This document shows, in pieces, positions 15,971-24,560 of a stretch of DNA of 35,885 nt. The notes beneath the pieces are model-generated. The model made no database searches. It was given only the letters and a program-made list of their open reading frames with translations, and was not told the DNA's origin. The translations under genes were made by a program, and so were the position numbers. Source of the DNA: Synergistaceae bacterium (GTDB lineage: Bacteria > Synergistota > Synergistia > Synergistales > Synergistaceae); the NCBI GenBank assembly GCA_031273805.1, contig JAISRE010000044.1, forward strand, positions 1 to 35,885, read 5' to 3'. The first letter of the stretch is position 1; every line of letters begins with the position of its first letter.

Positions 15971-16096
15971 CCCAGGGGATCGCTGATTTAATAGCTGCAA
16001 CGACATTTAGCCGTTTGCAAATACAAAGTGCATCCGGCTTTTAGTCTTTGCCCTTTAGTGTCCCTAACTTTAACAATAAATCAGACCTTCCCCAGG
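15971..16096. repeat. 126 bp element with imperfect terminal inverted repeats
   Basis: The left end reads CCCAGGGGATCGCTGATTTA and the right end, read on the minus strand, CCTGGGGAAGGTCTGATTTA. They share GGGGA, CTGATTTA and a similar flank. The left end also belongs to the CGCTGATTTAAT repeat family of this window. No coding potential is seen. It looks like a diverged relative of the MITE at 20707-20889. Confidence 0.45.
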
Positions 16097-17062: not shown

Positions 17063-17072
17063 AAATATTGAG

Positions 17073-17124
17073 TCAGCGGTTCCCTAAGGAATCGCTGATT
17101 AAATGTTCTTCGAGCGAAATGGAG
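17073..17124 (+). repeat. Repeat family copy, with a second end facing it
   Basis: 17088-17124 is a 37-base copy of the family (GGAATCGCTGATTAAATG, then TTCTTCGAGCGAAATGGAG). Just left of it TCAGCGGTTCC (17073-17083) is an inverted copy of the same end, separated by CTAA, so the pair also forms an 11 bp hairpin after the cyclophilin stop. No T-tract follows. Confidence 0.6.
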
Positions 17125-17203
17125 GGGAAGCAAATCTGTTTGTCTTTTAAAATGTGCTGATAAGCCTATTTTGATTGAAATAACGCTATAGTTCAAAGCC
17201 TTC

Positions 17204-20431: not shown

Positions 20432-20706
20432 ACTTTGCATGACACTTATTCAAGTTCATTGACTGCGGTTCCCTGTGTTAAAAAGACTGCCCTTTACGGT
20501 GGGGCAGTCCGGTATTACAATCCTTCCGAGCTTAATTGATTATTCGAAATATCCTGTGGATAAGCTCAAGGATTTGGATAATCAGGTTAAACAGAGGAGC
20601 AAGACTTATTGCATTGGTAAGGGGGGGTCTTACTCCTCTGTTTTTTGCCTGGAAGGCGCTCTCTGTCTTCTGACATCGCATCACCTCCCCTGGAGGGAAG
20701 ACCCTA
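20432..20706. other. Non-coding stretch with two hairpins downstream of cobQ
   Basis: The stretch holds the hairpin GACTGCCC / GGGCAGTC (20485-20509) without a T-tract, then about 80 bases without a clear pattern, then the terminator at 20592-20646. An 80-codon frame (20475-20717) overlaps both hairpins and shows no family features. The segment between the two hairpins could be the 3' end of the cobQ transcript or a separate small RNA. Confidence 0.4.
20592..20646 (+). terminator. Rho-independent terminator downstream of cobQ
   Basis: CAGAGGAGCAAGAC (20592-20605) pairs with GTCTTACTCCTCTG (20627-20640) with one mismatch, around a G-rich 21-base loop. TTTTTT follows (20641-20646). It lies 160 bases beyond the cobQ stop. 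Confidence 0.8.
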
Positions 20707-20889
20707 GGAAACGCTGATTTAATGTTCTTTGCGGCGAAATGGAGTGGATTCGTTCTCCCGTCGAAACGGTTGTCGCGAAAATGGCCGCAGGCACTTCAGA
20801 GCTATGTTGAGGACCATTTTTGTGGCAACCGTGAAGATGGTGAGCGAATACACCCATTGCAGCCCAAAGGTTATTAAATCAGCGTTTCC
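20707..20889. mobile_element. 183 bp MITE-like element with perfect 17 bp inverted ends
   Basis: The left end GGAAACGCTGATTTAAT (20707-20723) is exactly the reverse complement of 20873-20889. The interior lacks a transposase-sized frame. Flanking tetranucleotides are CCTA on the left and CTTA on the right, which could be a diverged 4 bp target duplication. The first 38 bases recur at 24523-24560 (minus strand, one difference) and, less exactly, at 17088-17124. The ends resemble those of IS5-type insertion sequences in general style, which is an inference only. Confidence 0.7.
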
Positions 20890-21047
20890 CTTATCACTTA
20901 TCGGCGCCCTGCTCTGCCGGAAGTCCGTCGCGGGGGATTATATCACAGCGGTTTGAGCCGCTCTGCAGCAAAAATGTCTCACGATTTATCGCGCGACAGC
21001 CGATATTGACTGTATGAACCCATAATAGACATGGAGAGTGCCGCGCG

Positions 21048-24427: not shown

Positions 24428-24522
24428 GCATCAGAGCACTTGTTTCGCCCTGTGCGTGAATGCGGTTTTATGCAGCGTTCGAAATATCTGCTGCCGAAGT
24501 CTCTATACGGCGCGGTAGACGA

Positions 24523-24560
24523 CTCCATTTCGCCGCAAAGAACATTAAATCAGCGATTCC
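24523..24560 (-). repeat. 38-base repeat copy, nearly identical to the MITE end
   Basis: Read on the minus strand this copy differs from 20707-20744 at one base (GGAATCGC here, GGAAACGC there). It is preceded by CTGA. No matching inverted end is found within 200 bases, so it is a solo end or a decayed element. It lies about 100 bases upstream of the Rpn promoter. Confidence 0.65.

Follow-up and report, generated by a model that had tools for sequence, protein, structure and literature searches.

The 183-bp sequence at positions 20707–20889 of the window, by which we mean the whole 35,885-nucleotide stretch of Synergistaceae DNA that was analysed, is very probably a gene-less MITE with IS5-type ends, moved by an IS5-type transposase of relatives, as judged from the sequences compared here. 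The earlier note had proposed a non-autonomous transposable element, a reading that is now backed by numerous copies, duplications of a YTAR target, empty sites and, in related genomes, an IS whose ends match. According to the proposed mechanism, the transposase would insert the MITE at a YTAR tetranucleotide, which would become duplicated, and the movement would follow the usual DDE chemistry. The MITE family is new, its kind is already well known, and it is a clear but ordinary example.

The element and related repeats in the window

In the orientation set by its left end, GGAAACGCTGATTTAATGTTCTTTG, the element lies on the plus strand. The left terminal inverted repeat (TIR), GGAAACGCTGATTTAAT at 20707–20723 on the plus strand, and the right TIR, the identical 17 bases on the minus strand at 20873–20889, are exact reverse complements, so that the perfect 17-bp repeats and the coordinates of the 183-bp element first reported stand unchanged. 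Beyond the TIRs, an imperfect inverted repeat reaches 36 nt at 81%. The TIR 17-mer with up to three mismatches was found six times in the window, where 0.07 occurrences are expected, and is therefore no chance match. The interior encodes no transposase, in agreement with the first reading, and no ORF of 80 aa or more is present within the 183 bp. The window element thus has the basic makeup of a MITE, being short (<600 bp), bounded by TIRs and free of a transposase gene.

The element is flanked by CCTA on the left (20703–20706) and CTTA on the right (20890–20893). These flanks are not identical; since the family duplicates YTAR, the suggestion of an eroded target duplication is nevertheless a fair one, and both are probably best read as decayed copies of a YTAR target site. 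At 20589–20643, downstream of cobQ, a T run comes after an inverted repeat of 17 nt, an arrangement that resembles an intrinsic terminator.

The left 38 bases had been noticed to recur elsewhere in the window, and two such places were located. Both are solo left-end fragments of this family: one, at 24522–24560 on the minus strand, agrees with the left end at 38/39 bases, and the other, at 17088–17128 on the plus strand, is more diverged and of the AGCG subtype. Directly outside the latter, with CTAA between them, is a decayed TIR remnant with three mismatches (17067–17083, minus strand). The decayed TIR and the solo left end, together 17067–17128, stand back to back just past the stop codon of a gene for a cyclophilin-type peptidyl-prolyl isomerase. 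Positions 15976–16091, between exact CCAG/CCAG flanks, belong to a second MITE family, in which TIRs of the same type enclose a different interior (CTAAAGGG...). This second family, about 92–117 bp in length and recognised by the interior motif CTAAAGGG, is present in several members of the genus.

Copies, target duplications and empty sites

The window is contig 17 of a draft MAG of 2.71 Mb in 172 contigs, 87% complete and broken at repeats. The census of copies was built from search matches and fetched stretches. In the own genome, at least 40 BLAST matches to the element were obtained, about 30 of which are near full length, with identities of 78–100%. A genome-wide search for the TIR pattern GGAANCGCTGATTWAAT with at most one mismatch gave 95 hits on each strand, against none for the reversed control pattern. 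The copies fall into length classes of 180–183 bp and 208–210 bp, the latter containing about 27 additional bp, alongside short forms of, for example, 55 bp. Copies often lie side by side with 3–4 bp between them, presumably because existing copies are flanked by YTAR. An 856-bp TIR pair in one locus (L031) was considered as an autonomous element and rejected; it encloses an ordinary host gene and no transposase.

Only two of the 60 relatives searched gave full-length matches, both of them other members of the genus. When a 25-base end pattern was looked for by exact matching in public genomes, it turned up in 42 stretches, all from Synergistaceae MAGs, with the named MAGs Cd354_bin13, Cd354_bin54, Gx485_bin65, Po218_bin54 and Kf353_bin117 carrying it. 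To judge from the style of their sample codes, these named MAGs may come from termite guts, an origin that the paper checked did not confirm. No copy of the MITE was found in the phage records, plasmid records and viral contigs scanned, and a literature search for MITEs in Synergistetes found no relevant paper. The dispersed full-length copies that the earlier note had suggested looking for in the genome and in relatives are accordingly many in the own genome, with more in sister species.

Intact copies sit between 4-bp duplications of a YTAR target, for instance CTAA/CTAA or TTAG/TTAG. Among 35 copies from the own genome plus two sister species, 16 have identical 4-bp flanks, and YTAR is read in 50 of the 70 flanks, with about 0.6% expected in either case; in the other MAGs, where the expectation is again about 0.6% for each, 12 of 18 copies have identical flanks and 30 of 36 flanks read YTAR. 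Target-site duplication is therefore a property seen at the family level, the window copy itself being eroded. An inverted repeat arising by chance or as an assembly artefact might be considered for a draft MAG in which contig ends frequently fall within the element, but dozens of diverged copies in varied contexts, with target duplications, and the occurrence of the family in independently named MAGs make this scarcely conceivable.

Empty sites, likewise proposed as a check, were found at two levels of precision. Two copies (L002 and L025) have landed within repeats of the second MITE family, with CTAA and TTAG as their targets. After removal of the element and one target copy, both junctions align without gaps to uninterrupted family-2 members, and these empty sites are base-exact because the uninterrupted host repeat is present elsewhere. 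At the position of the window copy, seven relatives have cobQ and the following gene side by side across a gap of about 50–180 bp that lacks the 183-bp element, compared with 617 bp here; this empty site is locus-level, not base-exact. In one genome (L158 in G008), the orthologous gap between cobQ and the next gene contains a mini-palindrome, degenerate and about 50 bp long, whose ends (GGTATCTCTGATTAGAT ... AATAAATTGACGTTTTC) resemble TIRs; it might be what is left of some other small element.

An IS5-type partner in related genomes

A DDE_Tnp_1 search in the five named MAGs led to L139, a locus of G062 (the Cd354_bin54 genome). This locus contains an IS of 1,304 bp (positions 7–1310) with perfect 17-bp TIRs, GGAAACGCTGAATAAAT, and a TTAA duplication on both sides. 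It encodes a transposase of 327 aa with matches to DDE_Tnp_1, DUF772 and the NCBIfam model NF033581 transpos_IS5_4 (290.7 bits, cut-off 140). The DDE transposase, the YTAR duplication and the GGAA... ends are those of the IS5 family, an assignment that applies to the IS and not to the MITE. The nearest plasmid-borne transposases, 46–52% identical, are annotated as IS5 family. The TIR of this IS differs from that of the window copy at 2 of 17 positions, and the MITE is present in the same MAG (Cd354_bin54) with TIRs GGAATCGCTGATTAAAT and GGAACCGCTGATTAAAT.

Within the genus of the window, several contigs of another genome (G009) carry or terminate in relatives of the L139 IS. In two of them TTAA or TTTAA adjoins the TIR GGAAACGCTGATTAAAT, which is identical to a variant of the MITE TIR. 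In L078/L151 of the same genome (C40, 1–246), an IS5-type TIR abuts the C-terminal part of the transposase gene; this apparently internally deleted IS copy may be on its way to becoming a MITE. Among other genus members, IS5-like and IS701-like loci (L059–L070 and L091–L096) were rejected as partners, as they are without these TIRs. In the own assembly, 87% complete, no match was found to PF01609, to PF13546 (IS701) or to the L139 IS protein.

The full-length IS with matching ends that had been called for thus exists in related genomes, at L139 and in the IS ends of G009, and agrees with the MITE in the kind of ends and in target type. The combination that the earlier note would have held against a mobile family, namely no other full-length copies and no transposase with matching ends, is the opposite of what was observed. 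The L139-type IS5 lineage is or was probably the mobiliser.

The MITE could also be simply a shortened IS5 copy, collapsed by internal deletion. Its ends and target type are like those of the IS, and the G009 contigs hold apparent internally deleted IS copies. The interiors speak against such an origin: after base 17, L139 reads ACATTCC and CGCACTT where the MITE reads GTTCTTT and AACCTTT, a BLAST search of the 1,304-bp IS against all fetched loci returned IS-related loci and no MITE copies, and the palindrome that makes up the MITE interior bears no relation to the transposase gene. We consider a deletion derivative unlikely. The IS and the MITE have their ends in common and not their interior; because the similarity stops at these ends of about 17 bp, the MITE probably acquired or assembled its interior independently, rather than arising by simple deletion from the IS found.

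Hairpin folding, gene context and known systems

The whole element is a full-length imperfect palindrome, and its RNA is predicted to form one hairpin. For the window copy, the predicted fold has an energy of −104.5 kcal/mol on the plus strand (z −11.9) and −76.3 on the minus strand. Among 52 copies from several species, the plus strand is the more stable in 51, with means of −101.8 versus −77.6, a difference of about 24 kcal/mol. The sole exception is the copy at 1501–1680 of L023, in which the interior is apparently inverted relative to the ends, the stable folding strand being the opposite one.

These properties raise the possibility that the element is at present a transcribed hairpin, regulatory or processed in mRNA by RNase III in the manner of ERIC and NEMIS, that it is under selection as RNA, and that its mobility is historical. 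Besides the single hairpin and its strand asymmetry, many base pairs differ on both sides between copies, and copies are common near the 3' ends of genes. Selection on the RNA was assessed by comparing derived changes from Watson-Crick pairs to G-U with those to A-C, under both the plus and the minus structures. The ratio of G-U to A-C changes was 66:28 in the plus structure, but 21:41 in the minus structure and 10:10 in pairs common to both. The excess in the naive count, which together with the fold asymmetry had suggested selection on RNA structure, is an effect of the choice of structure, and the strand-symmetric control gave no support for it. The bias towards substitutions that keep the RNA paired, as in an ERIC- or NEMIS-like element, was not found in the shared pairs. 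In addition, the genes around plus copies have mixed orientations, an Rfam search of the window gave no match, and mobility is evident from the YTAR duplications and exact empty sites. A function as transcribed hairpin is thus very unlikely as the explanation of the family. From the three ratios, the fold asymmetry, common to the family, is probably inherited, with no sign of RNA selection. The two-sided pair changes may instead reflect the matching of both ends to one transposase, or arm-to-arm correction of the palindrome. The preferred reading remains that of a MITE moved by an IS5-type transposase.

Copies are mostly intergenic; based on simple ORF calls, nine plus copies are in a convergent, 17 in a tandem and three in a divergent setting. 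Several copies adjoin a gene that uses as its stop codon the TAA or TAG inside the YTAR flank. The gene at L003 and its closest orthologue (80% identical) stop at the same residue, the orthologue with TAA; the gene at L011 and its closest orthologue (63%) likewise stop at a common residue, where the orthologue has TGA. As these orthologues stop at the same residue, the protein ends at both loci were not made by the insertion. Insertions at stop codons account for 7 of 29, against 33 of 438 non-coding YTAR sites (p 0.008), which is a modest enrichment; with stricter ORF cut-offs the numbers are 5/29 and 4/29 (p 0.035 and 0.046). An initial figure of 9/29, for which the ORF cut-offs were unequal and the position rule less strict, gave way to 7/29. 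Exact insertion into a stop codon is possible because YTAR contains TAA and TAG. It is conceivable, and in our estimation quite improbable, that an IS5-type system could enter stop codons exactly, duplicating them and adding a stable one-strand hairpin to the 3' end of the mRNA with the protein unchanged, in which case the family would be a portable 3'-end module.

The closest known counterparts of the ends and target are found in the YTAR-targeting group of IS5. The ends of ISBmu2 from Burkholderia read CTAG|GGAAACGCTGAT on both sides, the IS itself beginning with GGAAACGCTGAT, and agree with the MITE TIR over its first 12 bases. ISBmu2 and ISBmu23 prefer CTAA as target (PMC3091744), and the target motif of E. 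coli IS5 is YTAR (PMC10359306). This group resembles the present system in its CTAA/YTAR target and, for the IS of the relatives, in the IS5-type transposase, whereas the MITE is without a transposase gene and 183 bp long instead of about 1.2–1.3 kb, the likeness being one of ends only. RUP of pneumococcus is about 107 bp in length, gene-less and present in about a hundred copies, with TIR and target matching those of IS630-Spn1 (PMC2229807). Like the MITE described here, it is short and gene-less with TIR and target matching a separate full-length IS; it differs in its host, its IS630-type ends and its TA target, compared with IS5-type ends and YTAR here. ERIC, Correia/NEMIS and YPAL are intergenic imperfect palindromes of less than 200 bp that form long hairpins and have many copies per genome (PMC2229807). 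The palindromic structure, the hairpin (predicted in our case) and the copy number are comparable, but these elements belong to unrelated hosts and most have a terminal TA, and effects on mRNA are reported for ERIC. The excerpted account of QMITE2 from Coxiella burnetii describes a stable-stem MITE at the 3' end of a gene, where it supplies or abuts a stop codon (PMC5896051); the stem and the position at gene ends and stop codons are alike, while the host is unrelated and the excerpt shows no IS5-type ends.

With ends, target and exact empty sites in agreement, a MITE family of an uncultured bacterial group is tied to a specific type of IS. A single type of ends is common to at least two MITE families whose interiors differ. 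The repeats explain the break points of some contigs in the source MAG. A target that spells a stop codon lets the element settle at the 3' ends of genes without damage.
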